From Steroidobacteraceae bacterium (GTDB lineage: Bacteria > Pseudomonadota > Gammaproteobacteria > Steroidobacterales > Steroidobacteraceae), in contig JABAQN010000022.1 in assembly GCA_019187495.1 (NCBI GenBank), forward strand, positions 1 through 64,000: a DNA stretch of 64,000 bases, read 5' to 3'. The notes under the pieces were generated by a model. The model had not been told where the DNA came from, made no database searches, and was given only the letters and a program-made list of their open reading frames with translations. Below, piece after piece: positions 9,397 through 52,938 of the stretch. The stretch's first letter is position 1. Every line of letters begins with the position of its first letter. A program made the translations under genes and the position numbers.

Positions 9397-9400
9397 CGAG

Positions 9401-11232: not shown

Positions 11233-11245
11233 GAACGGGCGCGGT

Positions 11246-12271: not shown

Positions 12272-12305
12272 ATGATAAAAATGATGCGTGACAAATTTGT
12301 GACAG
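12272..12305 (-). promoter_or_regulatory. Pho box and -10 element of the pst operon
   Basis: On the minus strand CTGTCAC-aaat-TTGTCAC (12288-12305) matches the PhoB direct-repeat consensus of two 7-mers with a 4-nt spacer (11-bp period). Exactly 10 bp downstream is TATCAT (12272-12277), the expected spacing between the second half-site and the -10 of a PhoB-activated promoter. The start point would be near 12265, 18 nt before the pstS ATG. There is no good -35, as expected for such promoters. Confidence 0.88.
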
Positions 12306-36978: not shown

Positions 36979-37002
36979 AGCATGCGCCGGGGCCGCTGAC
37001 GA
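36979..37002 (-). promoter_or_regulatory. weak GTCAG-type element upstream of the TonB receptor gene
   Basis: Minus strand: TCGTCAG (36996-37002), 11 bp, then CATGCT (36979-36984). This imitates the half-site to -10 spacing of the stronger boxes around 39.4, 40.7, 49.7 and 52.9 kb, but the upstream half-site (CTGCAGG) and the -10 are poor. Additional CTGAC repeats at 11-bp spacing (37018-37035) overlap the end of the kinase gene. Confidence 0.3.
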
Positions 37003-37030
37003 GCCGCCTGCAGGAATCGTCAGGTTGCCG

Positions 37031-39042: not shown

Positions 39043-39375
39043 TCAGTCGTCCTCGATCTTCAATACCGCCCCCGTGCCGGCGTTGATCTTGATTTCCCGC
39101 ACCCGACCGGTGTCGGTCAATACCTTGATCTCGTAGACCAGGACGCCGTGCTTGCTCTCGAGTTCCACCTCGATGACGTCGCCGGGAACCTGCGCCGCCG
39201 CGATGGCCAGCACCTTTGCCAGGGGCAACACTTCACCGCGACGCAGCGCCTCGCGGACGATGTCCTGCTCGCCCTTCTCGCCGCCGATCGCGACATTCTG
39301 CGTCACATCGAGCCACAGCAGCGAGAGCAGCAGTGACCCGCCAAACACCCACGTTACGCGCTTCATGCCTGCCAT
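39043..39375 (-). CDS. PepSY-domain protein, first gene of the two-component operon
   Basis: A small exported protein of about 107-110 residues: membrane leader (MKRVTWVFGGSLLLSLLWLD) followed by one PepSY domain (EQDIVREALRRGEVLPLAKV, VIEVELESKHGVLVYEIKVL, GRVREIKINAGTGAVLKIED). PepSY proteins next to response regulators are thought to act as periplasmic modulators of the sensor. ATG 39375 or ATG 39366 may be the start; the predicted -10 CACAAT covers 39375, favouring 39366. The stop is immediately followed by the TTG of the regulator. Confidence 0.82.
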   Translation of the reverse strand: MAGMKRVTWVFGGSLLLSLLWLDVTQNVAIGGEKGEQDIVREALRRGEVLPLAKVLAIAAAQVPGDVIEVELESKHGVLVYEIKVLTDTGRVREIKINAGTGAVLKIEDD

Positions 39376-39408
39376 TGTGGTGAGAGCAACCTGACAGTGG
39401 CCTGACGG
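39374..39408 (-). promoter_or_regulatory. direct-repeat regulator box and -10 for the PepSY-regulator-kinase operon
   Basis: Minus strand: CCGTCAG-gcca-CTGTCAG (39391-39408), two half-sites with 11-bp period, then 11 bp and CACAAT (39374-39379). The arrangement is shared with four other promoters in the window. The likely transcription start, near 39367, is next to ATG 39366, suggesting a leaderless or almost leaderless mRNA. Confidence 0.5.
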
Positions 39409-39411
39409 CGG

Positions 39412-39446
39412 GCGTCCGCTTGCCGTCAGCCATCGCAGGCTATCTT
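39412..39446 (+). promoter_or_regulatory. direct-repeat regulator box and -10 for the divergent PepSY gene
   Basis: Plus strand: GCGTCCG-cttg-CCGTCAG (39412-39429), 11 bp, TATCTT (39441-39446). It lies back-to-back with the box of the divergent operon, so one regulator could control both. The predicted start is about 36 nt before ATG 39489. Confidence 0.5.
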
Positions 39447-39488
39447 GCCACCCGCATGCCAATTCCGGCAAAAATCAGGAGCAGGATC

Positions 39489-39800
39489 ATGACTAACCGA
39501 ACGACACTCGGCGGCGCACTCGCCCTGGCGGGGCTGATGGCCCTGGGTGGCACCGCGATCGTTTCCGCACAGACCGCGCCGGCAAGCCCCTCGGCCGCCC
39601 CGGTTGCCGCCACCACGCTCAGCCTCGGCGACATCGAGAGCAAGATGAATGCACAGGGCATCACGATCAAGGAGATCGAGTTGGAAGGCCTGCTCGCCGA
39701 GGTCGAAGGCCACGATGCGCAGGGCCGCAAGGTCGAGCTCACGCTCGATCGCCGCAGCGGCGAGGTCCTGTCGCGCAAGGTCAAGAACAAGACGAAGTGA
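39489..39800 (+). CDS. exported PepSY-domain protein
   Basis: A 103-residue precursor with signal peptide (MTNRTTLGGALALAGLMALG, cleavage near VSAQT), an Ala/Pro-rich linker, and one PepSY domain (LGDIESKMNAQGITIKEIEL, GRKVELTLDRRSGEVLSRKV). AGGAG lies 7-8 nt before ATG 39489. It is divergent from another PepSY gene that heads a two-component operon and shares its regulator box, so it is probably induced by that system and may feed back on it in the periplasm. The 3' end runs into a long hairpin. Confidence 0.83.
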   Translation: MTNRTTLGGALALAGLMALGGTAIVSAQTAPASPSAAPVAATTLSLGDIESKMNAQGITIKEIELEGLLAEVEGHDAQGRKVELTLDRRSGEVLSRKVKNKTK

Positions 39801-39810
39801 TGTATTCGGC

Positions 39811-39863
39811 TCGCCGCCACCGGTCGCGCCGGCTGATTCGGCTGGTGCGACCGGTGGCGGCGA
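39811..39863. terminator. long near-perfect hairpin between convergent genes
   Basis: Left arm from 39811 and right arm to 39863 pair over about 24 bp: 17 perfect pairs (outer arm cgccgccaccggtcgc at 39812-39827 with its complement at 39847-39862, plus a T-A), then further pairs with three G-U wobbles, closing on a 5-nt loop (gattc). It sits between the plus-strand PepSY gene and the minus-strand lipoprotein gene, so it likely blocks read-through in both directions, although it lacks a U-tract. Confidence 0.7.
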
Positions 39864-39878
39864 TTCCGATGAGGCCTC

Positions 39879-40658
39879 TCAGTTGGCCACGCGCGCAAAC
39901 GTTTCCGTCAGATCGTTACGAATCGACTTCTTGGTATCGTTGATCTGCTTCCATTCCGGCTGCTTGAGCAGGACTTCTTCCTTGTAGACTTCCTTGGCAG
40001 CCTCGCCACGCGCCTGTGCTTCCGGCGATCCGTACTGCTTGACCAGCACCGCCGTGGGGTTCGTGCCGGCGGGAGTACGCTCGATGTACATCGTGTAGGC
40101 CAACAGGGCGCCCGTCGATTTCTGGTGTGCCATGTTCGGAACAATGTACTTTTCCGTGTAGGACTTGTACTCGGCGGGCGTAACCAGCGCCTCGTAGTGA
40201 TTCACCGCATAATAGGATGACGGCGCCGCGGAATCCGCCGAATCACTGGCGTCGTGCGCGAGCACATCGGCTTGGCGCACCTGCACGCCCGGATCGCTGA
40301 GCGTCTGCATCCACTGCTGCAAGCTTGGCTCGTCCTTGAAATCCAGGATTGCGAGCGATCTGAATCCTGCCGGTCCCGGGCCCGGTTGTGCACTGAGCAC
40401 CGCAACCCGCAGTACGCCCGGAGCCTGGCGTACCGCAACCATGCGCTCGGCAAACTCCTTCGACTCCGGCGCGCTCGCCGCGACCGTTACCAGCGCGTGC
40501 GCGGGTTCGGCGGGCGCCACAACAGGGGGCGCGGAGTTCGCGGCCGCTGCGGATGATCTGCCCGCGTCCGCATTATTGCCGCTGCACGCCGCCAACATGG
40601 CGCACGCGAGAATCGACGCACCCGTCGTGACTTTTTTCAGAAAACCTGCGATCTGCAT
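39879..40658 (-). CDS. lipoprotein with two dimeric alpha-beta-barrel-like domains
   Basis: A 259-residue predicted lipoprotein (lipobox MLAACSG after SILACA). The mature part seems to hold two tandem domains of about 90 residues with ferredoxin-like (ABM/EthD-type) patterns: one around ALVTVAASAPESKEFAERMV to LAILDFKDEPSLQQWMQTLS, the other YYAVNHYEALVTPAEYKSYT to YTMYIERTP. The same two-domain pattern occurs in the C-terminal half of the gene at 41002-42183, so they are paralogues. No heme or catalytic residue can be assigned. GGGAG precedes the ATG and a direct-repeat regulator box lies 40 nt upstream. Confidence 0.65.
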   Translation of the reverse strand: MQIAGFLKKVTTGASILACAMLAACSGNNADAGRSSAAAANSAPPVVAPAEPAHALVTVAASAPESKEFAERMVAVRQAPGVLRVAVLSAQPGPGPAGFRSLAILDFKDEPSLQQWMQTLSDPGVQVRQADVLAHDASDSADSAAPSSYYAVNHYEALVTPAEYKSYTEKYIVPNMAHQKSTGALLAYTMYIERTPAGTNPTAVLVKQYGSPEAQARGEAAKEVYKEEVLLKQPEWKQINDTKKSIRNDLTETFARVAN

Positions 40659-40698
40659 AGGTAACTCCCTGCTCAGCTATCTGTGAAAACCAGACGCA

Positions 40699-40733
40699 AG
40701 TCTAGGCTCGATCACCTGACATCAATCTGACAT
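40699..40733 (-). promoter_or_regulatory. direct-repeat regulator box and -10 upstream of the lipoprotein gene
   Basis: Minus strand: ATGTCAG-attg-ATGTCAG (40716-40733), two identical half-sites 11 bp apart, then 11 bp and TAGACT (40699-40704). The start would be about 34 nt before ATG 40658. The same half-site and spacing are found before the porin at 52980, and the same -10 before the operon starting at 49572. The TGTCA core also resembles a PhoB half-site, so PhoB is an alternative binder. Confidence 0.6.
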
Positions 40734-40772
40734 CCAGTCGTCATCACAAGCCTCTCCTCGCGCGCGCGCCAG

Positions 40773-40987
40773 TTACGCCTCGGCTTGACGGAGAATGTTC
40801 CCGCTCAAGGGGAGAAAAATGCCCTGGTCGAGCACGATGGCTTGCCCTTCCTGGCTGAGCACGAATCGTGCCCATTCACCATCCGCTTCGGCAATGTCAG
40901 CCCATGAGAGTTCTCCGCCGCCCGATCGGGTGCGCGCATAGACACATCGCGACAGCGACGGCGGCGATTCCAGCGAATCCGCTGCGC
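40773..40987 (-). pseudogene. C-terminal remnant of a PstS-like binding protein gene
   Basis: The minus-strand frame ending at 40773 encodes ARFVLSQEGQAIVLDQGIFL followed by PLSGN. This is closely similar to the C-terminus of the intact PstS-like protein at 44781-45968 (FLLSREGQQVVLDQAVFLPL). Only about 70 residues of recognisable sequence remain and no start or signal peptide precedes them; upstream the frame runs into the neighbouring gene. It is best explained as the relic of a duplicated binding-protein gene. Confidence 0.6.
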
Positions 40988-41015
40988 CCACCCGGAACAA
41001 GTCAGTTCCGGGTGG
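40988..41015 (-). terminator. hairpin containing a stop codon in its loop
   Basis: CCACCCGGAAC and GTTCCGGGTGG form a perfect 11-bp stem (40988-40998 with 41005-41015) around a 6-nt loop. The TGA of the gene ending at 41002 lies in the loop (41002-41004). There is no U-tract, so it may attenuate or protect the 3' end rather than act as a classical terminator. Confidence 0.5.
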
Positions 41016-42183
41016 TATCGGCTGGAACTGCCAAGGTCCATGAGTCGGTAGTCCGCAGCTTCTCCTTCTTCTCCATCTGGGCCGCGTACACGGAATCGCT
41101 CGCCGCCAACTCGTCACTGAGCCTGCCCTTGATCGGCTCCGAAGATGCTTCGATCGCGGCGTCCGGGTACTCGAGCACGAGTAACAACCTCCCTTTGTCA
41201 CCTTCTTCCAGGTACATCATGTAGCTCGAAAGAATGCCGGAAGACTGTTGCGCACGCAGGTACTTGGCCAGATATCCATCCACCCAGTCCTGAAACTCGC
41301 TCACCGGAGCGGTCAGCGAGTAGTAGCTGATCTTGTAGATGGATCTTCCGGAGCTCTTTACGCCATGACCATCGCCGAGCAGGGCTCGCGCCCGCTTCGA
41401 GAGGATGGGCGCCTCGAGCTTCGCGGCATGTGCTGCGCGCCACGCCTCGAGTGAACGGTCATCCGGAAACCCGAGGATCGACATCTGCTCGAAACCGGAG
41501 GGTGCGTCGCGCTTCACACTGCGAACCCATGGTGTAGCGACGAATGCCCCGGTACTTCCGGCACCTGCGGCGACCATCGCCGTCGAATGCCCGCTACCTT
41601 CCGGCACGGTGAGAATCAGCCACGACGCCGACTTTGGCTGCCGGGCATCGGACACGCGAGCCCGGGCAAACATCGCCGCATGATCGGCAATCTGTGACTG
41701 CAGGCCGTCGCGCATCCTGTTTGCCTCATGCAGGAACTCTTCATCCGATCGTTGTGCTCCCGGCGGATTCTTGAATCCGAAGACGATGCAGCCGACATTC
41801 CTCGCGTTCCTGTCGCGCAAAGGCACCAGTACCAGGAACTTCGGCTCGGGATCCTGTTTGTTCCATCGTGGGTCGATGAGGGTAAAGCCGCTTTCGATCA
41901 CCATGACATCGTCCGCCGCGGAAATCTTTCCGATCCGGTCCGGCCAGGTGCCGGCGAACATCGTATAGATTCCCTTCTTGCCCGGCGGAGAGCCATGGAA
42001 CGTCACGCTGAGCAGGTCGCGGTTGTCACGCATCAACTGATCCACCAGGGCCTGTGCATGCATCTTGAACGCGGGCGCAACCCAGTTCTTTCCGGGCGGC
42101 AGGCCCTCAGGGTCGGCCGCAAGAGCGGCATAGGATGAAAATACATACGTTGCGACCCACAATAGCTTGCGTACGAGTGTCAT
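41002..42183 (-). CDS. periplasmic protein with C-terminal double dimeric-barrel module
   Basis: A 393-residue exported protein (leader MTLVRKLLWVATYVFSSYAA, cleavage near ALAAD). Residues of about 25-175 form a domain I do not recognise, perhaps sensor-like (FKMHAQALVDQLMRDNRDLL, FLVLVPLRDRNARNVGCIVF). Residues of about 190-370 repeat the two-domain barrel pattern of the lipoprotein at 39879-40658: SILGFPDDRSLEAWRAAHAA, YYSLTAPVSEFQDWVDGYLA and SSYMMYLEEGDKGRLLLVLE. It is the last intact gene of the operon from the CitMHS transporter, starting 19 nt after its neighbour with a GGAGG ribosome-binding site. Function unknown. Confidence 0.6.
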   Translation of the reverse strand: MTLVRKLLWVATYVFSSYAALAADPEGLPPGKNWVAPAFKMHAQALVDQLMRDNRDLLSVTFHGSPPGKKGIYTMFAGTWPDRIGKISAADDVMVIESGFTLIDPRWNKQDPEPKFLVLVPLRDRNARNVGCIVFGFKNPPGAQRSDEEFLHEANRMRDGLQSQIADHAAMFARARVSDARQPKSASWLILTVPEGSGHSTAMVAAGAGSTGAFVATPWVRSVKRDAPSGFEQMSILGFPDDRSLEAWRAAHAAKLEAPILSKRARALLGDGHGVKSSGRSIYKISYYSLTAPVSEFQDWVDGYLAKYLRAQQSSGILSSYMMYLEEGDKGRLLLVLEYPDAAIEASSEPIKGRLSDELAASDSVYAAQMEKKEKLRTTDSWTLAVPADTTRN

Positions 42184-42202
42184 CGGCTGCCTCCTGCGGA
42201 AT

Positions 42203-43714
42203 TCAATACTGGCCTGGGGGCGACAACGCCCACTTCAGCAATGCGACGTAGACCGCGCGACCATCCTCTGTCAGGTCAGGGAACCGTGGCGCATCCATCG
42301 GAAACAACGCACGACGGGCCGGCGCCACTCGATCGTTCGCCATCGTCGCGCCCTTCTCGTAAACGAACAGGGTCGCGTGTTCAGGCTGATTCGGGATGGT
42401 GGCGATGACCTGCGCCCCCGCTGGAGGGCGCGACCACGCCAGCACACCGGGCGTCCGGTAAAGCTTCAAGCGCCCCGCCGGAAATCCCGCCGCAATCGGG
42501 TGCAATCCGCGCGCAATGTCGATGTAATTCTCCGGCGGATAGAGGCTTTCCTTGTGATCGTTCACACCATAATCCCGATTGCGATGCCGCCCAACCATGC
42601 CGAGCGCATCAACGGCCTTGGCCTCGAGCAGCACTACGGGAGCAGTAGCATCCGCGTACTTCACCCCCAATTTGTACTTGTTGGTACTGGCGGAGATGAT
42701 CACGATGTCCTTGCCGACTGCGCGGCTGTCCGGCTCCATGTGATCAGCCGTCGCGACATCGAATCCCAGCTTTCCGAGCCAGGAGAGTTGGGCCTGGTCC
42801 GATGCCTCGTTCTCCGGCCATGGCAGATCATAACGACGGACGAAGAGCAGCTTCTTGCCCTTGGCGATGCGTGACAGTTCCTCCCACTGCGCGGAAGCTG
42901 TCGCAGTGATCGGCGCGGGCGGTGCGCTGACAGCCCAACGCAGCGCGGCGTCGAATATGCGACGCCCGGAGAACCACGCGAACTCCTTCGGATCCTGGGC
43001 TGCAGGTCCCTGCGCATCCGACAGAATGGACCAGCTGTTGTCGCCGAGAAAGAGTCCCACACGCCGGGCTGGTGCGACCGCTCCGCCGGCCATCAGGGAA
43101 CCCTTCTCATATGAGAAGACGGCAGCCTTGTCGTAGTCATCCTGGAATGACACCGCGACATCAGCGCCTCTCATCGGCTTTCCCCAGCCGGGGTCGGTGA
43201 CGCCACCGCTGAACAGCAGCGGTGCGATCATTCCCTGCGAAACGCTTGCGGCAGCGAGTATCGGATTCGTGCTGCTCGTGGCGAGCGCGTAGTAGTCCGC
43301 ATGATTCTCGTTGTGGAAGGGCTTCTCGCGAACCACCGAAAAATCCTCGTGCAGCTTGTCGCCGGTCATGTGCAGCAGCGGATACGCGTACTTGTTCCAC
43401 GTAACGATCGGCGCTGCCACCTCAGCCAACCGGGCGTCCATCTCGCGTGCGTTGACAGTCGACGAGACAATGATCAGGTCCGCCTTGCTGGCTGCCGCAG
43501 GCGCCTCGACCGCATCGACCATCGTGACATTTGCTCCGCGCGTGCCGAGATAATCGCGAATCAGCGGGTCATCGTTCGGAACTCCCGGTTTCGCCTCGCC
43601 GACCACGAACAAGACACGCTTGCCGATCAGCGCGTCCGGGGCCACAACATCAGCACGTGCCTGTGCCGACCAGGCCAGCACAACCACCACCATGACCAGA
43701 AGTGTTCGCAGCAT
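42203..43714 (-). CDS. exported protein with two tandem copies of a GATase1-like domain
   Basis: A 503-residue precursor starting at ATG 43714 (MLRTLLVMVVVVLAWSAQAR, signal peptide; GGGGAG upstream). Two homologous halves follow: copy 1 at about 30-250 and copy 2 at about 275-500. Matching segments include RVLFVVGEAKPG / KLLFVRRYDLPW, DLIIVSSTVNAREMD / DIVIISASTNKYKLG, and FSYEKGSLMAGGAVAPARR / FVYEKGATMANDRVAPARR. The LIIVSSTVN strand resembles a class I amidotransferase-like fold seen in secreted, often multidomain, proteins, but no catalytic Cys-His-Glu triad is seen. It sits in the transporter operon between the YncE-like and barrel genes. Probably a binding or structural protein; function unknown. 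Confidence 0.65.
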   Translation of the reverse strand: MLRTLLVMVVVVLAWSAQARADVVAPDALIGKRVLFVVGEAKPGVPNDDPLIRDYLGTRGANVTMVDAVEAPAAASKADLIIVSSTVNAREMDARLAEVAAPIVTWNKYAYPLLHMTGDKLHEDFSVVREKPFHNENHADYYALATSSTNPILAAASVSQGMIAPLLFSGGVTDPGWGKPMRGADVAVSFQDDYDKAAVFSYEKGSLMAGGAVAPARRVGLFLGDNSWSILSDAQGPAAQDPKEFAWFSGRRIFDAALRWAVSAPPAPITATASAQWEELSRIAKGKKLLFVRRYDLPWPENEASDQAQLSWLGKLGFDVATADHMEPDSRAVGKDIVIISASTNKYKLGVKYADATAPVVLLEAKAVDALGMVGRHRNRDYGVNDHKESLYPPENYIDIARGLHPIAAGFPAGRLKLYRTPGVLAWSRPPAGAQVIATIPNQPEHATLFVYEKGATMANDRVAPARRALFPMDAPRFPDLTEDGRAVYVALLKWALSPPGQY

Positions 43715-43742
43715 TCCAATCTCCCCGGTTATTGCCCGCCGC

Positions 43743-44729
43743 TTACTTGCCCACACCGAGCAACCCACCGTTTCCCGCTAGGTACAGTTGCTGCGTCCGG
43801 TCATCGAATGCGGCCGCAACGCCGCGCGAGCCGACATCCGGCGATTCCATCAGTGAGGCGGTCAACTTGGCATTCTGGATCACATTCAACGCGCCGCTCG
43901 CATTCGGCATGTAGAGCATGACGAGCCGGGCCGGAGCGAACTGCATGGCCAGCCCGGACTCTCCCTGCCCTCCGACCGGAACCACGCCGATCATTTGACC
44001 CGGGTCCGGGTCGACGATGATCATTCGACCGTTGGAACACGCGACATAGAGGCGTCGCTCCCGGGTATCGTGGGCGATCGCGGTTGGGCCTGCACCGGGC
44101 CACACCGAGATTGCCCCGACCGGGTTCATCTCGTGCTTGGCGCCCAGTTCGATGACATGGAGCACGTTTGCGGCTTCGTCCGCGACGAAAAGGTGCCCGC
44201 GTCCGTCGACGGAGGCCTGCCGCAGGCGGCCACCGAGCTTCACGGCCCCGCGCTTGCTGCCGCTTATCGCGTCGAACGCGACCAGGTCGCCGCTGCCGGC
44301 ATTGGAAACATAGATTCGTCGCGTCGTTGCATCAAACTCGACCTCGCGTGGTTCGAGACCACCAGATCTGACTGTCGCAACGACCTGCAGCGATTGCAGA
44401 TCGAACAGTGTTACCGTTCCCGCATCCCGGTTGCTGACATAGCCGCGCCGGATTTCCGGCGCGATCTCGATCGCCCCCGGGACACCGGTCGTCGCCACAC
44501 TCGCCAGCCGACGGCCAGTCTCCAGGTCATAGACATCGACACCCCCGTCACGCGCCGAGTACAAGCGTCGTGCGGCGGAGTCCACCGCCAGTGACAGCGT
44601 CTCGGGTGCGCCCTCGGTCGAAATGGTGCGATTCACCCTGTAGCCGGGCGACGCGGCATTCGCGTTCGCTGCATCGAAAGCGAGGAGCGCGAACATCATG
44701 ATCAGGCAGCCTGTCAGTCGCAACTTCAT
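43743..44729 (-). CDS. YncE-like periplasmic beta-propeller protein
   Basis: A 328-residue exported protein (signal peptide ending near ANAAS) made of repeated propeller blades: RLYSARDGGVDVYDLETGRR, RRGYVSNRDAGTVTLFDLQS, RRIYVSNAGSGDLVAFDAIS and RRLYVACSNGRMIIVDPDPG. These YVSN/DAGTVT repeats are those of the YncE/PQQ-lactonase-like propeller group. In E. coli yncE neighbours the TonB receptor gene yncD; here a TonB receptor gene is two genes upstream in the same operon. No catalytic residues are apparent, so a ligand- or surface-binding role is likely. Confidence 0.8.
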   Translation of the reverse strand: MKLRLTGCLIMMFALLAFDAANANAASPGYRVNRTISTEGAPETLSLAVDSAARRLYSARDGGVDVYDLETGRRLASVATTGVPGAIEIAPEIRRGYVSNRDAGTVTLFDLQSLQVVATVRSGGLEPREVEFDATTRRIYVSNAGSGDLVAFDAISGSKRGAVKLGGRLRQASVDGRGHLFVADEAANVLHVIELGAKHEMNPVGAISVWPGAGPTAIAHDTRERRLYVACSNGRMIIVDPDPGQMIGVVPVGGQGESGLAMQFAPARLVMLYMPNASGALNVIQNAKLTASLMESPDVGSRGVAAAFDDRTQQLYLAGNGGLLGVGK

Positions 44730-44780
44730 GGTGTCATTCCGGTTTGTGAAACTCTTTGCCCGAAGAATGTTCCGTCGGTG

Positions 44781-45968
44781 CTATTTCGCGAGCAGTTCCC
44801 GCGCATGCGCAGCCTGTTCGGCGCGCAGCGGCAGGAAGACAGCCTGATCGAGGACAACCTGCTGGCCCTCTCTGCTGAGCAGGAACTGCAGGAAGGACTC
44901 GAGTGCGGCAGGCACGGGCTTCCCCGGTGCCTTGTTGATATTGAAATAGATCAGCCGGCTGAGCGGGTATCGTGCCTGTGCCACGTTCTCATAAGTCGGT
45001 GCAATGGCCGGGTCCGCGGGGTCCCGCGACAGTGGCAGCATCTTCACAGGCGAATCGATGTAGGCCAGGCCCGAATAGCCGATCCCGAAGCGATCGTTGG
45101 CCACACGACTCGCGAGTGGAAACACCAGCTTCTCGTAGTGCAGATCCTCGCGCCATTCGCCGCGAGTCGCACCCGGGCTGAGAACGCGCTGCCGGATGAA
45201 TTCCTCGAAGCCGTTCCACGGCTGGATGGCGTAAGCCCTGACCGGCTTGTTTGCCCACTCGCCTCCCAGACCGAGTTGTCCCCAGGTGCGAATGGCCTCC
45301 GGCGCACCGCGGTGCCGTGTTCGCGAGAAGATGGCGTCAATCTGCGCGAAGTCGAGCTTCGACAGCGGATTGTCCGGGTGGACAAAAAACCCCATCGCAT
45401 CGAGGAATCCGAAATGACGATAGCTTCCGCCCGCGACCGGTATGCTCGTCGGCAAATAGCCGAATCGCCGCTCGAACTCCTCGAGATCTTCCGGCTTCAG
45501 CTCACGCGAGACGAAAACGAAGTCGACCGACTGCCTGATCAGTTCTTTCGTACCGAGACTGCCCGCGTACGGCGGCGCTGTCAGACTTAGCTGCACACCG
45601 GGATGAAGTTCACTGAAGCGTTTGAACCAGCGATTGGCGAGTTCCACGAGCACATCCGATGCGCCTCCGGTGAAACTTCCGGACAGCCCCGGGCCAGAAT
45701 CCCGCTGATAAGATGGCAAGCCCTCGTCCAGTGCCGGCTGCAGCAACTCTCGCATCGGCAAACTGCGACCGTGTGCACGCGCCTCCTCCTTTTCGGCCTC
45801 TGTCTGCGGCAAGACAGGCGCAACGGGTGGAACGAGCCAGTGCACCGGCCTGACCGCGCGGCCAGCCTCGATCGCTGCTGCCCCCTCACTGGCACCAGTC
45901 GAAGCCGCGATGCAAAGCATCGCGACTGCGGCGAGACCGCTTTGCAGTCCTGCCGCGCGAGGGCTCAC
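44781..45968 (-). CDS. PstS-like periplasmic substrate-binding protein
   Basis: A 395-residue exported protein of the PBP_like_2 (PstS-like) superfamily. GTG 45968 overlaps the TonB receptor stop (GTGA), giving the leader SPRAAGLQSGLAAVAMLCIA. The body has DVLVELANRWFKRFSELHPG, TAPPYAGSLGTKELIRQSVD, FVFVSRELKPEDLEEFERRF, MGFFVHPDNPLSKLDFAQID, WGQLGLGGEW and SREGQQVVLDQAVFLPLRAE. It differs from the Pst operon PstS by an N-terminal insert rich in Glu/Ala and by lacking [10 protein letters not shown]. There are no pst permease genes beside it, so ligand delivery may be to another partner. Phosphate or a phosphate-bearing compound is only a guess. Confidence 0.75.
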   Translation of the reverse strand: MSPRAAGLQSGLAAVAMLCIAASTGASEGAAAIEAGRAVRPVHWLVPPVAPVLPQTEAEKEEARAHGRSLPMRELLQPALDEGLPSYQRDSGPGLSGSFTGGASDVLVELANRWFKRFSELHPGVQLSLTAPPYAGSLGTKELIRQSVDFVFVSRELKPEDLEEFERRFGYLPTSIPVAGGSYRHFGFLDAMGFFVHPDNPLSKLDFAQIDAIFSRTRHRGAPEAIRTWGQLGLGGEWANKPVRAYAIQPWNGFEEFIRQRVLSPGATRGEWREDLHYEKLVFPLASRVANDRFGIGYSGLAYIDSPVKMLPLSRDPADPAIAPTYENVAQARYPLSRLIYFNINKAPGKPVPAALESFLQFLLSREGQQVVLDQAVFLPLRAEQAAHARELLAK

Positions 45969-48181
45969 AGATTCACCCGCCACGACAGTGTCATGTTGCG
46001 AGGCGCTCCGGGCACCACCCCGTTCTCGTTGAGCGTGGAATTGACACCCTCGAAATAGTGTTCATCGAACAGATTGCCGATCTTCAGCGTGAAATTGTGC
46101 CGCTCGCGCAACCGATAGTAGATTGCGAGATCTGCGACCGTGTAACCGGGCAGCATCAGCACTCGCCCATCATTCTGGCTCGGCAGGCTGCCGGCAATCT
46201 CGCTGCTGTAGTACGTGCCCACGCCAATACCGAGTCCCTGCAATGGGCCATCCACGACGTCATATCGAACCCACAGATTGGCGGTCCGAAGTGAAGAGTT
46301 GGTCAGCTGGGCACCGACCAGGGGCGCCGACGGCGCGCTGTAGGACTCGTCGATGTACGCATCCGTGTAGGCGACACCCGCAACGACCTGCAGGTTCTCG
46401 AGCACGCTGTAGTTCAATTCCAGCTCGAGGCCCTTCGAGCGCTCCGCACCCACCTGCTGGGAGCAAGTGCCGGCCACCCCGGTGTTGCAGGCGATGGGAG
46501 CAAGCGTGTCTTCCCGCTTGATATCGAACAGCGCAAGTGTTGCTGTAAGGCGGTCTGCCAAGGCATCGGCCTTCACCCCGACTTCGATCTGCTTGCCCGA
46601 CTGGGGATCAAAAGGGTTTGCTCGCCCGGCAGCGTCCTGCACCCCTGCCGCCTGGGGTACAAATGATGTGGCGTAGCTCGCGTACAGCGTCCACGCGGGC
46701 GTCGGCTGAAACATCAGGCCCGCTGTCGGCAGCACGTTTGATGTTTGCGTCTCCCGCGAAGTCAGCGGAGGCGTCTTGCGCTCCTCCGTTTCCTGCTTGT
46801 CCCTGGCGTAGCGGAGGCCAACACTGGCTTTCCAGCGTTCGGAGAACGTGATGAGGTCGGACAAATACAGACCTGTCGAGGTATTTCGCGTGTAGCGCCG
46901 ATTCAACGGTCCCGATGGGTAGCTGGCGAGCGGCAATGCGTTGCCGTACACAGGGTCATAGACATTGATATTGATCCGTCCGGGGCCCGGCAATGACGCG
47001 GGCCCAGTCGTCGGTCCGTTGAAGAACTGTATGCGCTCGAAATCAGTCGAATCGACTCCCGCGTTCACGCCAACCAGCAACTTGTGGCCGATCGGCCCGG
47101 TATCGAACGGTATCGAGAGATTCGAATCGAGGAAATTGTAGGTTCGCTTGTTGAGCTGCTGTCGCGCGCGCCTTTGCAACGTCACCCGATCTGCCAGCAC
47201 CGAGACATTGTCGAATCCTTCAGCCGAATCTTCCGTGCTGATACTGCGAAATGCGGCGTTCAAGCGCAGACCGCTGTCGAAATCGTGCGAATACGCCAGC
47301 GTGCCACCCTTGCCCTCTTCGTGCTGCCGATCGCCCGGCTCCTGATAGCGGGTCCGGATATCCGCGATCAGGCTCGCATCCTTGTTCGGTGCAACGAGTT
47401 GCGTGTCATACGCATTCTTGCGGCGGCGATACTCGAATGAAGCTCTCAGCGAATCTCGTTCCGTCATGTTCCAGGTGAGACTTGGCGAAACGTAGCTGGC
47501 CTCTTCGAAGCCGTGACGAAACGTATCCCGATCCGTGTGCTCCACCACGAGCCGATAGAGCAGCGCGCCTTCGCCGATCGGGCCCGTGACATCGAAGCCC
47601 GCGTTGTAACCCGCACCATCACCGAAGGACATTCCGGCGCCATCGTACGTCGACCCTCGCAGGTCGATGATGGCACCGAAGTTCTCCCGAGGCTTCTTGC
47701 TGACGATATTCACGAAGCCGCCCGGCTGGGCCTGGCCGTAGAGTACCGACGCAGGGCCTTTGACGACTTCGACATTCTCCGCCGCGAACGTCGGCGGCGA
47801 GCCAAATCGGCCGCTCAGGCCCGGCAGGCCATCCACCATGATCGCGCTCTTGTCGGCTTGCGTATTCTTGAAGCCACGAATGGAGAGGTCATAGCCCGTC
47901 ACGCCACCGCGGCGTACTCCGGTCATATAGCTGTAGAGATCCGCGATGTTGGTGGTCTCGATCGCCTTCATGAAGGCATCGCTGTAATTGGCGACCGAGT
48001 AGGGAGTATCCATGACGCTGATGTCCTGCTTCATCGCGCTCTGGGCTCCCACCGAAACGAACTTTCCCTCGACGATCACCGTATGGAGCTCTTCGGCCTG
48101 CTCCTCCGAAGCAGTTTCCTGGGATCGCACCTCGCCAATCATTACCAGAACAGCGGTGAAAATCAGAAAGCTGCGCAACAT
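45965..48181 (-). CDS. TonB-dependent siderophore-type receptor
   Basis: A 738-residue outer-membrane receptor of the FhuA/FecA-like siderophore group. ATG 48181 has a strong GGGAGG 6 nt upstream; the leader is MLRSFLIFTAVLVMIGEVRS. A TonB box-like segment LHTVIVEG is followed by a plug domain (DTPYSVANYSDAFMKAIETT, VEVVKGPASVLYGQAQPGGF, NIVSKKP), which is characteristic of siderophore receptors, and a barrel ending NMTLSWRVNL. A barrel segment with CNTGVAGTCSQQVG is unusual. It lies 29 bp after the CitMHS transporter gene and overlaps the PstS-like gene. Ferric-citrate or another metal chelate is a reasonable but unproved ligand. Confidence 0.9.
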   Translation of the reverse strand: MLRSFLIFTAVLVMIGEVRSQETASEEQAEELHTVIVEGKFVSVGAQSAMKQDISVMDTPYSVANYSDAFMKAIETTNIADLYSYMTGVRRGGVTGYDLSIRGFKNTQADKSAIMVDGLPGLSGRFGSPPTFAAENVEVVKGPASVLYGQAQPGGFVNIVSKKPRENFGAIIDLRGSTYDGAGMSFGDGAGYNAGFDVTGPIGEGALLYRLVVEHTDRDTFRHGFEEASYVSPSLTWNMTERDSLRASFEYRRRKNAYDTQLVAPNKDASLIADIRTRYQEPGDRQHEEGKGGTLAYSHDFDSGLRLNAAFRSISTEDSAEGFDNVSVLADRVTLQRRARQQLNKRTYNFLDSNLSIPFDTGPIGHKLLVGVNAGVDSTDFERIQFFNGPTTGPASLPGPGRININVYDPVYGNALPLASYPSGPLNRRYTRNTSTGLYLSDLITFSERWKASVGLRYARDKQETEERKTPPLTSRETQTSNVLPTAGLMFQPTPAWTLYASYATSFVPQAAGVQDAAGRANPFDPQSGKQIEVGVKADALADRLTATLALFDIKREDTLAPIACNTGVAGTCSQQVGAERSKGLELELNYSVLENLQVVAGVAYTDAYIDESYSAPSAPLVGAQLTNSSLRTANLWVRYDVVDGPLQGLGIGVGTYYSSEIAGSLPSQNDGRVLMLPGYTVADLAIYYRLRERHNFTLKIGNLFDEHYFEGVNSTLNENGVVPGAPRNMTLSWRVNL

Positions 48182-48210
48182 GGAACCCTCCCAGGTCATA
48201 GTCATTGATT

Positions 48211-49572
48211 TCATCCTGCCGCCAACGGAAACAATCCCAGCGCGAGCGCCGCCACGAGCATCAGCAGGCAGATCCCCGCCGCCCAGGCCAGTGTGAATTT
48301 CTGGTGATCCCCGAAATCGACACCCGCGAGTCCGACCAGCAAGTAAGTGGACGCGACCAATGGGCTCAGCAGATGTATGGGTTGCCCGATCAACGACGCC
48401 CGCGCCATTTCGAGGGGGCTGATGCCGGCGGTGCGCGCGACTTCCGTCGCGATCGGCAGCACGCCATAGTAGAACGCGTCATTCGAGATGAAGAACGTGA
48501 ACGGCATGCTGGCGAGCGCGGTAATGACCGCGAGCGACGGTGCCCAGGATTCCGGCACCACCGTCAGCAGGCTGTCGGACATGGACTTGACCATCCCCGT
48601 GCCGGATAGGATGCCGGTGAACACGCCGGCGGCGAAGATCAGCGCAACCACAGCGATGACATTGCCGGCATGCGCCGCGATGCGCGCTCGCTGCTCCGGC
48701 AGTTGCGGGTAGTTGGCGACGATTGCGATCGCAAACGCGACCATGAAGAGCACGGGCAGCGGCAGCAAATTGACGATCAAGCCAACGATCAGGGCCACGG
48801 TCAGCAGCGCATTGAACCAGCGCAACCGCGGGCGCTTGAGCCGGGATGCAGCTTCACTCTCCCCGTTCGCCGGCAGCAGCGCAGTATCTTCAATCGATGA
48901 CTGCGCGACCGCCGGATCCGAATCGGCTGCCAGGGGGGGCGTCCCGAGTACGACTTGGCCCAGCCGCTGCCGCTCGCGCACACCGAGGAGCCATGCGAGC
49001 GCCACGACGCCCGCGACTCCGATGACCATCACCGGAATCATCGGGACGAAGACTTCCGACGGATCCACCGACAATGCGGTCGCCGCCCGTGCCAGCGGCC
49101 CGCCCCACGGCGTGAGATTCATGACCCCACTCGCGAGGATGGTCACACAGGTGAGATTCAAGGCGTTCATGCCGAGACGCCGGTACAGGGGCAGTATCGA
49201 TGCCACGGTGATCATGTAGGTGGTCGATCCGTCGCCGTCGAGCGACACGAATGCGGCAAGCACCGCGGTACCCACCACCACCTTTGCGGGATCGTTGCCG
49301 ACACTGCGCAGGATCCGGCTCACCACCGGATCAAAGAGCCCCGCATCGATCATGATCCCGAAGTAGAGGATGGCGAACATGAGCATCACGCCGGTCGGTG
49401 CGAGCGTGCGGATGCCATCGAGCATCATGATGCCGAGTTCATCACTGCCGACACCGGCCAGCACGGCGAAGAGGATCGGAATGGCGATCAGCGCGACGAG
49501 CGGCGAAACGCGCTTCAGCATGATCAGCGTCATGAAAGTGATCACCATGCCGAAGCCGAGCAGCGTCAGCAT
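48211..49572 (-). CDS. CitMHS-family (metal-)citrate:H+ symporter
   Basis: A 453-residue inner-membrane transporter with about 12 hydrophobic segments. Family-typical stretches are MLTLLGFGMVITFMTLIMLK, the GVMLMFAILYFGIMIDAGLF loop, FVSLDGDGSTTYMITVASIL, MNLTPWGGPLARAATAL and SMPFTFFISNDAFYYGVLPI. Proteins of this family import citrate complexed with Mg2+, Ca2+ or other divalent metals. It heads the operon continuing into the TonB receptor, 29 bp downstream, and lies behind a TctDE-like citrate-type two-component system, consistent with regulation of tricarboxylate uptake. A regulator-type box and -10 lie 85-120 bp upstream. Confidence 0.9.
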   Translation of the reverse strand: MLTLLGFGMVITFMTLIMLKRVSPLVALIAIPILFAVLAGVGSDELGIMMLDGIRTLAPTGVMLMFAILYFGIMIDAGLFDPVVSRILRSVGNDPAKVVVGTAVLAAFVSLDGDGSTTYMITVASILPLYRRLGMNALNLTCVTILASGVMNLTPWGGPLARAATALSVDPSEVFVPMIPVMVIGVAGVVALAWLLGVRERQRLGQVVLGTPPLAADSDPAVAQSSIEDTALLPANGESEAASRLKRPRLRWFNALLTVALIVGLIVNLLPLPVLFMVAFAIAIVANYPQLPEQRARIAAHAGNVIAVVALIFAAGVFTGILSGTGMVKSMSDSLLTVVPESWAPSLAVITALASMPFTFFISNDAFYYGVLPIATEVARTAGISPLEMARASLIGQPIHLLSPLVASTYLLVGLAGVDFGDHQKFTLAWAAGICLLMLVAALALGLFPLAAG

Positions 49573-49656
49573 GGAATCTCGCCTCGTGCACTGGTCATGG
49601 GCGCCCCTCCGATCCGGCGTGGACGCTTTCGGCCAGCGTCGCAGCGGATGGGGGCC

Positions 49657-49691
49657 AGTCTAGGAACTTCTTGCTGTCTGCAACCTGTCAG
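49657..49691 (-). promoter_or_regulatory. direct-repeat regulator box and -10 upstream of the CitMHS operon
   Basis: Minus strand: CTGACAG-gttg-CAGACAG (49674-49691), 11-bp period, then 11 bp and TAGACT (49657-49662), the same -10 as before the lipoprotein gene at 40658. The half-sites read GACAG instead of GTCAG. The predicted start leaves a leader of about 78 nt before the transporter ATG. Confidence 0.5.
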
Positions 49692-49701
49692 GGACGGGCG
49701 C

Positions 49702-50769
49702 TCACTTCGGCGGCTCGATGGCTCCATTCCAGAGGTTCATAAAGCGACGCTTCTTCAGCTGGTCGAGGTAAACCAGCAGGCCGGGGCCGAGGACCACCGG
49801 CCGCAGCGGGCCGACCACGGCGTTGGTAATTCCGCCGCGGGTCTGCTGTACCGACGCCTCATTTCGAATCGCCGGCAAGCCACCCTCGTTCGCAAGCGTC
49901 CGCTGGCCCTCGATGGACACCAGGTACTCGAGGAAGCGATGTGCCGCATCCGGATTCGGTGCGCTGGCGGGAAGCACAGCGGTTCTCGTGACGACCAGCG
50001 TGTAGTCGCGCGGATAGACGATCGCGAGCGGCGCTCCAGCGGCGATGCGCGATTGCGCATATGAACCGAGGAGGTTGTAACCGATGGCGAGATTGCCCTT
50101 CTCGAGCCGCGCGAGCAGGTCGCTGGTGCGCCGCTCGATGACGACACCGGCGTCGCCGAGAGTCTCCAGCAGCGCGCTGAATTCACTGCTCTGGCGCGCA
50201 TCCTGCGAGGCGAGCAGGTAACCCACACTGCTGCCGGCAATGTCATAGGTACCGATCCGGCCACGCCACGCCGCGGGATCCCGTCGCACCAGTTCGATCA
50301 GCTCGCTTCTCGTCCGCGGCAGGGTCCGCCCCGAGAAGGCGTTGACATTGAACACCATCACGGCGGGCTCGAACGTGAATCCGAATGCCTGGTCGCGCCA
50401 CCGCGCCCATTCGGGAAGCATCCGGGCATTGGCCGAGAGATGGGTCGCGGCGTAGCCGTCGTTGACGAGTTTTACCTGCAGATCCATGGCCGAGCTCAAC
50501 AGCAGATCGGCCCTAGGCTTGCCGTGCTTCAGATCTTCGAGGAAGCGCTCGTAGAGCACGTGGCTCTCGAGTTCCTCATACTGGACAGCAATTCCCGGGT
50601 TGAGCCGCTGAAAGTGCCGGACAGCCGCCTCGAACACCGCGGTATCTGTCGTGCTGTAGATCGTCAGCTGCCTCGCACCAACGCTCGCCGCAGGATAGGT
50701 CTCCGCGACGGCTGTCAGGGAAAACCAGCCGGCGGCGCTCACGATCAATAACCACGCGACGCGACTCAT
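49702..50769 (-). CDS. ABC-type substrate-binding protein co-encoded with a sensor kinase
   Basis: A 355-residue periplasmic binding protein (leader MSRVAWLLIVSAAGWFSLTA) of the iron/molybdate/spermidine-like SBP superfamily: LTIYSTTDTAVFEAAVRHFQ, ADLLLSSAMDLQVKLVNDGY, AFGFTFEPAVMVFNVNAF and APNPDAAHRFLEYLVSIEGQ. No ABC permease or ATPase is adjacent. Its ATG overlaps the kinase stop (ATGA), so it is translated with the kinase. Such binding proteins next to TctE-type kinases may present the ligand to the sensor domain instead of a transporter. Confidence 0.82.
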   Translation of the reverse strand: MSRVAWLLIVSAAGWFSLTAVAETYPAASVGARQLTIYSTTDTAVFEAAVRHFQRLNPGIAVQYEELESHVLYERFLEDLKHGKPRADLLLSSAMDLQVKLVNDGYAATHLSANARMLPEWARWRDQAFGFTFEPAVMVFNVNAFSGRTLPRTRSELIELVRRDPAAWRGRIGTYDIAGSSVGYLLASQDARQSSEFSALLETLGDAGVVIERRTSDLLARLEKGNLAIGYNLLGSYAQSRIAAGAPLAIVYPRDYTLVVTRTAVLPASAPNPDAAHRFLEYLVSIEGQRTLANEGGLPAIRNEASVQQTRGGITNAVVGPLRPVVLGPGLLVYLDQLKKRRFMNLWNGAIEPPK

Positions 50770-52172
50770 GACTCGACACCTTCCGCCCGCCACGGGAGCC
50801 GGAGCGTCACTTCGAGACCACCACCTTCCCGGTTGGCGAGTACCACTTCACCACCGTGACTGGCAATCGCACGGCGAACGATGGCAAGACCCAGCCCGGC
50901 TCCAGGACTGCCGACGCCATCACCACGAACGAAGCGCTCGAATACCTTCGCCTGCCGGGATTCCGGGATACCGGGGCCACGGTCGGCCACCGTGACTACA
51001 TAGCCGCCCTCTTCCGCCCGAATCGACACGAGCACGGAACCATCCACGGTCGAGCCGTATTTCAGCGCATTGTCGATGAGGTTCTTCAGTGCCTCGCCCA
51101 ACATCAACGCATCACCGACGAAAGGCGCCTGATCCAGTTCGGTGCTGATGACGACATCCCTGCGCCGGGCGTGCGGTACTCCCTCATTGATCGCCTCGTG
51201 CACAAGGTCCAGCAGGTCACAGGGCTCGAAGGCCCGCACATCCGAGCGATGCATCACCGTGGCGTCGATCAGGAGCTGATCGAGCAGGCGCGAGAGCCTC
51301 GCGGCATTGCGCTCGATCGCCGCGATACTGCGCCGCAGCCCCTCCGGATCCTCGTCGGCGGCGACGTGGGCCTGCGCATACAGGGAGGCGAGCGGCGTGC
51401 GCATCTGGTGCGCGGCTTCGCCGATGAATGCCCGCAGCGCCTCGATGTTCCCGGCGAGGCGCCGCATGAAGCCGTTTATTGCGTCTATCAGCGGTGCGAT
51501 CTCGAGCGGTACGGGTTCCACGACGGGCTGCAGGTCTTCCGGTTGCCGGCCTGTGAGGTCTTCCCCGACGCGCTGCAACGGACGCAGCGCCCGGGCAATA
51601 CCCCACATGACCACCGATATCGCGAGCAATGTCATCAGGGTGATGGGCGCAACCGCTCCGAGCACGAGCTCCCGTGCCAATTCGTCACGCGCGCGGCGCG
51701 TGTGCCCGACCTGCACCCAGACCCATCCCTGCATGCCTGGTTCGGCGATCTCGCGCCCGAGCACTGCGAACCTCACCGGCTCGCCCCGATAGTCCGCGTC
51801 GAAAAAGCGGGCCTCGTCCAGCGCGATGCGCCGGTCGCGACCCGAAGGCAGCTGCCAGCCAGGCAGGTCGTCATATCCGGTGATCGTGCTCGGGCCTGGC
51901 CCGATCACGCGATAGAACACCCGGTCGTCCGGTGCCGCCGAAAGCATCTCCAGCGCGGCATACGGCAGATCCACCTGCAACTGGCCGCGGTCGACGGACA
52001 GCGTTTCCGCGATGGACAATGCGGAGCCTGCCAGCAAGCGGTCATACGATTTGTCCGCGGCAAGGCGCCCGTAGGCCTGGGCTGCGAACAGCAGTGCGAG
52101 TGTCCCCACCAGGAACAGCAGGCCCAGCATGCCCGCGATGCGGGCGCGCAGCGAAAGCACCCTAGGCTTCAT
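50766..52172 (-). CDS. TctE-like sensor histidine kinase
   Basis: A 468-residue inner-membrane kinase. Membrane helix at about 14-36 (ARIAGMLGLLFLVGTLALLF), a periplasmic 2CSK_N-type domain typical of TctE kinases (ADKSYDRLLAGSALSIAETL, VFYRVIGPGPSTITGYDDLP), second helix near 172-192 (LVLGAVAPITLMTLLAISVV), HAMP linker (IARALRPLQRVGEDLTGRQP), His in AFIGEAAHQMRTPLASLYA, and HATPase_c with LIDNALKYG, DRGPGIPE and PGAGLGLAIVRRAI. ATG 52172 overlaps the regulator stop by 11 nt. TctE relatives sense tricarboxylates; the adjoining CitMHS transporter supports such a ligand. Confidence 0.92.
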   Translation of the reverse strand: MKPRVLSLRARIAGMLGLLFLVGTLALLFAAQAYGRLAADKSYDRLLAGSALSIAETLSVDRGQLQVDLPYAALEMLSAAPDDRVFYRVIGPGPSTITGYDDLPGWQLPSGRDRRIALDEARFFDADYRGEPVRFAVLGREIAEPGMQGWVWVQVGHTRRARDELARELVLGAVAPITLMTLLAISVVMWGIARALRPLQRVGEDLTGRQPEDLQPVVEPVPLEIAPLIDAINGFMRRLAGNIEALRAFIGEAAHQMRTPLASLYAQAHVAADEDPEGLRRSIAAIERNAARLSRLLDQLLIDATVMHRSDVRAFEPCDLLDLVHEAINEGVPHARRRDVVISTELDQAPFVGDALMLGEALKNLIDNALKYGSTVDGSVLVSIRAEEGGYVVTVADRGPGIPESRQAKVFERFVRGDGVGSPGAGLGLAIVRRAIASHGGEVVLANREGGGLEVTLRLPWRAEGVES

Positions 52173-52842
52173 TGCCCGAGCCCGCTGCCTCGGCGACATA
52201 CCCGACGCCGCGAACCGTACGAATGATCACTGCCGATCCGAGCTTGCGTCGCAGCCGGCCGATATACAGCTCGATCGCGTTGTCGCCGGCCTCTCCGTCA
52301 AAGTCGAAAAGCTGTGAGGCAATTTCGTGCTTGCTGACCACGGCGCCGACGTTGCCGATCAGGATCTCGAGAAGCCGGTACTCGCGATTCGGCAAATGCA
52401 GCATCCTGCCGTCGAGCGTCGCGGATCTCGCGCCCCGATCGAAAACCAGCGACCCGACCGTCGTGACGCCGGAAGCCACACCCTGTGTACGACGCAGCAG
52501 CGCGCGGCAGCGCGCATCGAATTCGCGCAGATCGAATGGCTTGGAAAGATAGTCGTCGGCCCCGACATCCAGCGCACTCACCCGGTCCTCGATCTTTGCG
52601 CGCGCTGTCAGCATGAGCACGGGGGTTCGATCGCCCCGCTCGCGCAGCCAGCGCAACACCGAAAACCCATCCCTGCGGGGAAGGCCGATGTCGAGGACGA
52701 TGAGATCGTAGGACTGATAGCTCAGCACGTCGTGCGCGGCCTGGCCATCACGCAACCAGTCGACGGCATAGCCCTGCCGGCGCAGATGCCGAAGCACCGC
52801 GTCTCCCAAGTCGGCTTCGTCCTCCACCACGAGGATGCGCAT
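52162..52842 (-). CDS. TctD-like response regulator
   Basis: A 226-residue OmpR-family regulator: receiver domain (LVVEDEADLG, phospho-acceptor D51 in LIVLDIGLPRRDGFSVL, Lys in YLSKPFDLREFDAR) and winged helix (LPNREYRLLEILIGNVGAVV, NAIELYIGRLRRKLG, IIRTVRGVGYVAE). ATG 52842 is preferred to an upstream in-frame start at 52872. It lacks a visible ribosome-binding site, and a TATAAG element ends 6 nt upstream, which suggests a leaderless mRNA. It is divergent from a porin gene and heads the operon with kinase and binding protein. Confidence 0.93.
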   Translation of the reverse strand: MRILVVEDEADLGDAVLRHLRRQGYAVDWLRDGQAAHDVLSYQSYDLIVLDIGLPRRDGFSVLRWLRERGDRTPVLMLTARAKIEDRVSALDVGADDYLSKPFDLREFDARCRALLRRTQGVASGVTTVGSLVFDRGARSATLDGRMLHLPNREYRLLEILIGNVGAVVSKHEIASQLFDFDGEAGDNAIELYIGRLRRKLGSAVIIRTVRGVGYVAEAAGSGNEA

Positions 52843-52848
52843 TGCAGG

Positions 52849-52854
52849 CTTATA
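52849..52854 (-). promoter_or_regulatory. -10-like element immediately before the TctD-like gene
   Basis: TATAAG on the minus strand with 6 nt to ATG 52842, so RNA synthesis would begin at about the A of the start codon. No good -35 is seen at 16-18 bp. This supports, but does not prove, a leaderless transcript. Confidence 0.4.
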
Positions 52855-52903
52855 GCAGGATCGGGAACGCAACGGGCACTACCGCCGCAGCGGGGTCGCG
52901 CAC

Positions 52904-52938
52904 GTGTCAGCGGAATGTCAGGTTTGGATCAATACGAT
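52904..52938 (+). promoter_or_regulatory. direct-repeat regulator box and -10 upstream of the porin gene
   Basis: Plus strand: GTGTCAG-cgga-ATGTCAG (52904-52921), then 11 bp and TACGAT (52933-52938). The predicted start is about 35 nt before ATG 52980, with GGGAG as ribosome-binding site. It uses the same ATGTCAGGT half-site and spacing as the lipoprotein promoter at 40.7 kb. Confidence 0.6.

Follow-up and report, generated by a model that had tools for sequence, protein, structure and literature searches.

In the DbfQRS system of Vibrio cholerae, binding of a PepSY protein to the kinase shifts the latter toward phosphatase activity, and modules of PepSY, response regulator and histidine kinase genes (PepSY-RR-HK) are described as widespread (PMC12714742). 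The same paper mentions modules with two PepSY proteins, or with a PepSY gene on the opposite strand, and links PepSY domains to metal binding; it gave no DNA motif for DbfR when searched for motif, binding site and direct repeat (PMC12714742). Here we describe a PepSY-RR-HK module and the promoters around it in the first 64,000 nt of contig JABAQN010000022.1 (the window), from a Steroidobacteraceae genome of 3.57 Mb that is 91% complete. Promoters at this locus share a direct repeat, NYGTCAG-N4-NYGTCAG, 11 bp before a -10-like hexamer (N11), and in the sampled family this arrangement occurs in exactly those genomes that encode a close ortholog of the module's regulator. We consider it likely, from sequence comparison, that two sister OmpR/PhoB-type two-component systems share the locus, with the PepSY-associated regulator acting at four of the five boxes listed below (sites 1, 2, 3 and 5) and at a further operator at 36996-37034, and a TctD-like regulator acting at site 4. 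No operator for the PepSY-RR-HK group turned up in the literature that we searched, and the statement holds for that literature only. BqsR reportedly recognizes TTAAG-type repeats, unlike NYGTCAG.

The PepSY module and its boxes

As in DbfQRS and the Pseudomonas PA2658/PA2659-BqsRS system, where the gene of a small periplasmic PepSY protein lies directly before the regulator and kinase genes (PMC12714742), a small PepSY gene in the window adjoins genes for a response regulator and a histidine kinase. The three lie on one strand without gaps, as they do in nine orthologous loci of relatives (L006-L014), and the PepSY protein has an N-terminal signal-like stretch, judged by eye. The module, the five boxes and the genes behind four of them are as follows.

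37031-38377, minus strand: sensor histidine kinase of the same operon (HATPase_c), 54-68% identical to the kinases beside the regulator in L006-L014
38377-39042, minus strand: OmpR/PhoB-type response regulator (Response_reg and Trans_reg_C), the proposed NYGTCAG binder
39043-39366, minus strand: small PepSY protein, first gene of the PepSY-RR-HK operon (PF03413, 1.6e-16)
39374-39379, minus strand: -10-like CACAAT of the PepSY-RR-HK operon, 7 nt before the PepSY ATG
39391-39408, minus strand: site 1, box before the PepSY-RR-HK operon, CCGTCAG-gcca-CTGTCAG, N11, CACAAT
39412-39429, plus strand: site 2, box before the divergent PepSY_2 gene, GCGTCCG-cttg-CCGTCAG, N11; inner half imperfect, outer half perfect
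39441-39446, plus strand: -10-like TATCTT of the PepSY_2 promoter, read directly
39489-39800, plus strand: divergent second PepSY protein, PepSY_2 (PF13670, 6.8e-9)
39879-40658, minus strand: lipoprotein-like gene behind site 3, no Pfam match
40716-40733, minus strand: site 3, box before the lipoprotein-like gene, ATGTCAG-attg-ATGTCAG, N11, TAGACT at 40699-40704
49674-49691, minus strand: site 4, a TctD-type box placed outside the proposed PepSY regulon, CTGACAG-gttg-CAGACAG, N11, TAGACT at 49657-49662
52904-52921, plus strand: site 5, box before the porin gene, GTGTCAG-cgga-ATGTCAG, N11, TACGAT at 52933-52938
52980-54302, plus strand: Porin_5 outer-membrane protein (PF16930, 1.5e-31)

An earlier reading of the window (the original prediction) had reported these five boxes, and on direct reading its coordinates, its 11-bp period and its 11-bp spacing to a -10-like hexamer are right at all five. 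The correct orientation that it claimed for every box is found at sites 1, 2, 3 and 5; at site 4 the gene's strand reads NYGACAG/NAGACAG, and an NYGTCAG-like reading (CTGTCTG/CTGTCAG) exists only on the opposite strand. The layout is that of the OmpR/PhoB subfamily of activators, namely a direct repeat with a 10-11-bp period, over the -35 region and at a fixed distance to the -10. A box so placed is the usual arrangement for an activator that replaces the -35 element.

The hexamer at N11 before the PepSY gene lies 5-9 nt from the ATG in all 12 loci whose regulator is at least 64% identical (L005-L016), and in ten of these it fits YANNNT, the exceptions being GCATAA in G090 and AAGGTT in G103. 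In the window, direct reading gives 7 nt from the hexamer to ATGAAGCGC, with another in-frame ATG inside the hexamer. Provided that this -10 is correct, the PepSY-RR-HK mRNA is predicted to be leaderless, with transcription starting at or next to the start codon.

Co-occurrence of box and regulator

The exact repeat YGTCAG-N5-YGTCAG occurs four times in the window's own genome, every time within window positions 37018-52921, and its reversed pattern, the control, not once. Because the box pattern was drawn from three of these four matches, the count alone proves little, and the relatives are the real test. The fourth match (37018-37034, plus strand), absent from the original prediction, forms the distal half of a composite operator, described below, that precedes a TonB receptor gene. 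With up to one mismatch allowed, the genome has 36 matches (the four exact ones included) against 33 for the control, which is no excess, so the case for sites 2 and 4, with one mismatch each, comes from their conservation in relatives, this genome by itself being insufficient to call them; the weak one-mismatch sites elsewhere in the genome were set aside on the same count.

We sought the full pattern YGTCAG-N5-YGTCAG-N11-YANNNT, an exact box plus -10, in 150 family genomes, the window's own (G000) among them. Its 26 matches fall in exactly the ten genomes (own genome included) with a regulator at least 70% identical to the product of 38377-39042, the ortholog cut-off for co-occurrence, and the other 140 have none; the control gave none in the ten and four in the 140. 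Orthologs of the regulator are thus found in nine of the other 149 genomes, at 70-76% identity, and all nine genomes have the box. Ten matches belong to the promoter of the operon itself and accompany the gene, and the remaining 16 lie in six of the ten genomes and in none of the 140. Within one genus, eight of 14 genomes have both box and regulator (again at least 70%) and six have neither, although this comparison reuses genomes of the 150-genome sample and is not an independent test.

Spacing was examined on boxes collected with the -10 ignored: 69 distinct exact boxes, drawn from the regulator loci, from the own genome (four) and from 15 relatives, 13 of which had 66 matches between them against 23 for the reversed control. 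The original prediction had proposed that boxes should pile up 11 bp before a -10, and they do, YANNNT standing at spacing 11 in 26/69 and in no more than 6/69 at any other spacing from 0 to 34.

Individual sites are also conserved. Site 1 is kept with N11 in all nine orthologous loci (-10 CACAGT in six, CAGAGT in two, CACGCT in one). The geometry of site 2 is kept in eight of the nine, with a weaker inner half there, and a PepSY_2 homolog was found divergent in 8/9, the exception being L013. Site 5 is kept at the orthologous porin in G074, G105, G114, G122 and G134. For site 3 the support consists of its exact match and spacing.

The 26 matches form six target groups: the PepSY-RR-HK operon (10 genomes), Porin_5, PepSY_TM, TonB receptor, beta-propeller-like proteins and the window lipoprotein. 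The Porin_5 targets of the five relatives just named are 58-63% identical to the window porin, itself the sixth member, and the PepSY_TM targets occur in the same five, all confirmed by Pfam. TonB receptors with the box are found in G114 and G122, and beta-propeller-like targets, 28% identical to window 43743-44729, in G105 and G134. We did not count as targets the box-like sequences that recur in relatives without a -10 at N11, one of them at an aldo/keto reductase gene (L128).

A composite operator with a fixed gap

Sites 1 and 2 lie back to back between the two divergent PepSY genes, and together make up one of two composite operators in the window.

39391-39429, no single strand: 39-bp composite operator (reversed pair, 3 bp, forward pair), assigned to both divergent PepSY genes and subject of the gap test below
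36996-37034, minus strand: second composite operator, CTGACGG-caac-CTGACGA-ttc-CTGCAGG-cggc-TCGTCAG, N11, CATGCT at 36979-36984
34889-36925, minus strand: TonB-dependent receptor (PF00593) downstream of the kinase gene, proposed target of 36996-37034

The layout is two reversed half-sites, exactly 3 bp and two forward half-sites, the inner forward half being imperfect. A gap of 3 gave 26 distinct composite matches at 16 places, operators read on both strands being counted twice, and 24 of these have a -10 at N11. For the 12 remaining gap lengths between 0 and 12 the counts were 0-4 each, and no match had a -10. As the loci were chosen for their boxes or regulators, this is a test of geometry and not of genome-wide frequency. 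Thirty block-shuffled copies of the window contained no match to the composite pattern.

The composite stands at the PepSY_2 side in nine of the ten genomes with a regulator of at least 70% identity (the exception, G060, has no PepSY_2 match), and imperfectly in G090. Elsewhere it is found before TolC-type channels in G105 and G134, before a G028 protein with a Phenol_MetA_deg match just below cut-off, after the kinase gene in G103 and, in imperfect form, before the homologous receptor gene in G060 (L249, 5227 and 5248). On G134 contig C606 (L247) a composite precedes a gene with weak similarity to the window lipoprotein (31%); the next gene, truncated where the contig ends, is a CitMHS gene, so that a gene family served elsewhere by TctD-type boxes may also come under PepSY-type control.

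The boxes of AgrR, CopR and PcoR bear some likeness to the composite: they occupy a Type II activator position and have the consensus ATKACANNNNTGTMAT, a TGACA/TGTCA-like inverted repeat that is flanked at some operators by in-phase direct repeats (PMC7380067). Relative to that description, the inner inverted pair here is one base further apart, the promoter-side half is the weak one, whereas in AgrR boxes that half is better conserved, and a plain direct repeat can also make up a complete site (PMC7380067). The 6-4-6 inverted repeat TGACA-N4-TGTCA of AgrR/CopR is not what the composite contains; it is TGAC-N7-GNC-like, with the fixed gap of 3. As a separate observation made by eye, five relatives (L118, L123, L132, L143 and L148) have one reversed half-site, CTGAC, 1-2 bp ahead of the porin box, in four of them at the AgrR/CopR inverted-repeat spacing (TGAC-N6-GTC); no such half-site was seen in the window.

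The sister motif, proposed control and alternatives

In TctDE of Pseudomonas and Salmonella, genes for tricarboxylate transport and an outer-membrane porin accompany the regulator and the kinase (PMC4513871), and a similar neighborhood surrounds site 4, with a 2CSK_N kinase, a solute-binding protein and a CitMHS citrate transporter alongside the regulator; a difference from that system is that the neighboring porin here carries another regulator's box (PMC4513871).

48211-49572, minus strand: CitMHS citrate transporter behind site 4 (PF03600, TIGR00784), with a TonB receptor gene behind it (45965-48214)
50766-52199, minus strand: TctE-like histidine kinase partner (2CSK_N, HisKA, HATPase_c)
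52162-52842, minus strand: TctD-like response regulator (best family model TctD), the proposed site 4 binder

Since the regulator scores 216 bits, below the curated TctD cut-off of 337, we call it TctD-like only. Its orthologs among the 150 genomes are confined to G134 (81%) and G078 (68%), and therefore it fails to explain the distribution of the NYGTCAG box, eight of the ten box-bearing genomes having no TctD ortholog.

Site 4 is kept in G134, before the CitMHS ortholog and beside the TctD-like system, as ATGACAG-gtcc-TAGACAG-N11-TAGACT. Its forward NYGACAG reading scores 11/12 in both genomes, and its reversed NYGTCAG reading falls from 11/12 in the window to 9/12 in G134. Scanned as GACAG-N5-YGACAG with N10 or N11 and YANNNT, the sister motif has 32 matches in 17 of the 150 genomes against 12 for the control. 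Five clusters (in G034, G051, G078, G079 and G105) hold 18 of them, all within ~15 kb of a TctD-like regulator save one G105 match ~30 kb off, and the other 14 are near chance level. The clusters of G078 and G105 place NYGACAG-N4-NYGACAG 10 or 11 bp before the -10 of CitMHS, TonB-receptor, solute-binding protein/regulator and porin promoters.

We infer the following model of binding, activation, feedback direction and signal from the geometry, conservation and co-occurrence observed above, that is, from sequence throughout. The PepSY-RR-HK regulator would bind NYGTCAG direct repeats, 11 bp apart and over the -35 region, that end 11 bp before the -10, and would activate its own operon (site 1), PepSY_2 (site 2), the lipoprotein-like gene (site 3), the porin (site 5) and the TonB receptor (36996-37034). 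At a composite operator two dimers may sit back to back, with the distal pair assisting the proximal one, in which the inner half-site is weak. The PepSY proteins, presumably periplasmic, probably act on the kinase as feedback partners; by analogy with DbfQRS, phosphorylated regulator would raise PepSY output, which in turn would damp the kinase. A metal or membrane signal is a guess, made because PepSY is linked to metal binding and because the targets are mostly outer-membrane transporters. The TctD-like system would bind NYGACAG repeats and control the CitMHS-TonB operon through site 4.

The original prediction had instead placed all five boxes, site 4 included, in one OmpR-type regulon. 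An OmpR/PhoB-type regulon with this box is strongly supported, but a single one is not, since site 4 belongs to the sister motif. The common 11-bp period and N11, the 11/12 match of site 4's other strand to NYGTCAG and the TAGACT common to sites 3 and 4 would all suit one regulator; however, the G134 site-4 promoter retains NYGACAG at 11/12 and the other reading at only 9/12, and G078, which has TctD and no PepSY regulator ortholog, has NYGACAG at CitMHS and porin promoters, so we regard a single regulator as unlikely. As candidate regulators the prediction had named the product of 38377-39042, which fits sites 1, 2, 3 and 5, the TctD-like protein, which we propose for site 4, and a PhoB-like protein, which is unlikely. 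A split in which the TctD-like regulator controls sites 4 and 5, and the PepSY regulator just its own operon, would recall the control of opdH by TctD in Pseudomonas, and the porin gene is divergent from tctD, as such control would lead one to expect (PMC4513871); the G078 porin ortholog also bears a TctD-type box. Yet site 5 is NYGTCAG, the porins of G074, G105, G114 and G122 carry NYGTCAG where there is no TctD ortholog, and in G134, a genome with both systems, the porin is on a different draft contig from tctD and keeps its NYGTCAG box. We judge this split improbable; the porin looks like a target of the PepSY regulator, and given its position in G134 its place beside tctD may be incidental.

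That the boxes are Pho boxes bound by PhoB is more improbable still, although both kinds have two TGTCA-type half-sites with an 11-bp period over the -35 region, and PhoB boxes are given as (T)GTCAT with a spacer of 5 (PMC4513871). The window offers its own comparator.

12288-12305, minus strand: Pho box, CTGTCAC-aaat-TTGTCAC, N10, TATCAT at 12272-12277
8626-12247: pst-like operon behind the Pho box (solute-binding protein, two permeases and an ATPase)

This Pho box fits the pattern of CTGTCAT/C repeats 10 bp before a -10, which the PepSY-type sites fail, ending in G rather than T/C and standing 11 bp away. The original prediction had drawn the same distinction, and for the one Pho box seen (ending in C, 10 bp to TATCAT) it stands. 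The distributions also differ, since none of the 140 sampled genomes that lack the PepSY regulator has the boxes (PhoB presence itself was not searched). A chance resemblance picked out by eye could appeal to the one-mismatch scan (36 against 33), but the own-genome exact count, the co-occurrence, the composite gap of 3 and the spacing-11 peak leave it scarcely credible, and conservation makes chance very unlikely for sites 1, 2, 4 and 5.

Several observations weigh against the two-system model. Eight of the ten box-bearing genomes come from one genus, and the 26 matches represent six target groups, not 26 independent events. No counterpart of site 3 precedes the lipoprotein ortholog of G134, and upstream of the G044 and G060 porin orthologs the gene's strand shows no box of at least 10/12, though both genomes have the regulator. 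The -10 of site 1, CACAAT, agrees with TATAAT at 4/6, and its commonest form in relatives, CACAGT, at 3/6. The regulators next in line, in G090 (69%) and G103 (64%), have boxes that are imperfect or without a fitting -10, and in L185 (2033-2628) an 11/12 box without a fitting -10 lies ~150 bp before a frame that looks PepSY-like by eye. The divergent PepSY regions of three paralogous modules with ~50% identity (L017, L018 and L285) keep the divergent PepSY_2 gene and have no NYGTCAG box, only coding-region resemblances. On the TctD side, neither G000 nor G134, which have TctD orthologs, has a perfect NYGACAG site with a -10, just the one-mismatch site 4; among TctD-ortholog genomes only G078 has such perfect sites (three), and the regulators at the G034, G051, G079 and G105 clusters share ~48% identity with TctD and are not its orthologs. 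For these last reasons site 4 is assigned less securely than the other sites.

Some of these loci have further features. L185, from a metagenome bin labelled Alphaproteobacteria, has the only near relative of the regulator (57%) among 18 loci searched; its PepSY-like frame directly precedes the regulator, has no Pfam match and was not matched in a search with the window PepSY protein. In the ~50% paralogous modules, box and regulator seem to have changed together. The intergenic regions of L017, L018 and L285 share, by eye, an 11-bp-period GTTCA-N6-GTTTA.

The porin promoter connects the two motifs. Orthologous porins have YGTCAG boxes in six genomes and YGACAG in one without the PepSY regulator, this being G078, where the porin ortholog (49%) carries ATGACAG-cctg-ACGACAG; site 5 itself, read as a TctD box, scores 10/12. 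The recognition helix reads NAIEALV[VTL]R[LV]RRK in 12 PepSY regulators and NAIE[LV]Y[IV][GAS]RLR in six TctD-like ones. As the half-site is nearly palindromic, the box of one regulator approximates that of the other on the opposite strand (TGTCAG versus TGACAG). It is conceivable, if rather doubtful, that a single base in each half-site, in effect its orientation, distinguishes the sister regulators, that porin-like promoters could switch systems through very few changes, and that both regulators bind some sites in opposite orientations, where one would activate and the other block; the loss of the reversed reading of site 4 in G134 (9/12) weighs against dual orientation.

New here are the 39-bp composite operator, the predicted leaderless PepSY-RR-HK mRNA and a porin promoter found with either sister box. 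With the operator defined, putative targets become readable from genomes (porin, TonB receptors, PepSY_TM proteins and TolC-type channels), and these are mostly outer-membrane entry or exit points. Sister motifs one base apart, together with a porin promoter that occurs with either, offer a small natural test case for the transfer of promoters from one two-component system to another. Between the boxes, window 41002-43768 encodes two proteins of 393 and 521 aa with no Pfam match, whose homologs occur in the same order on G134 contig C205 (L245).

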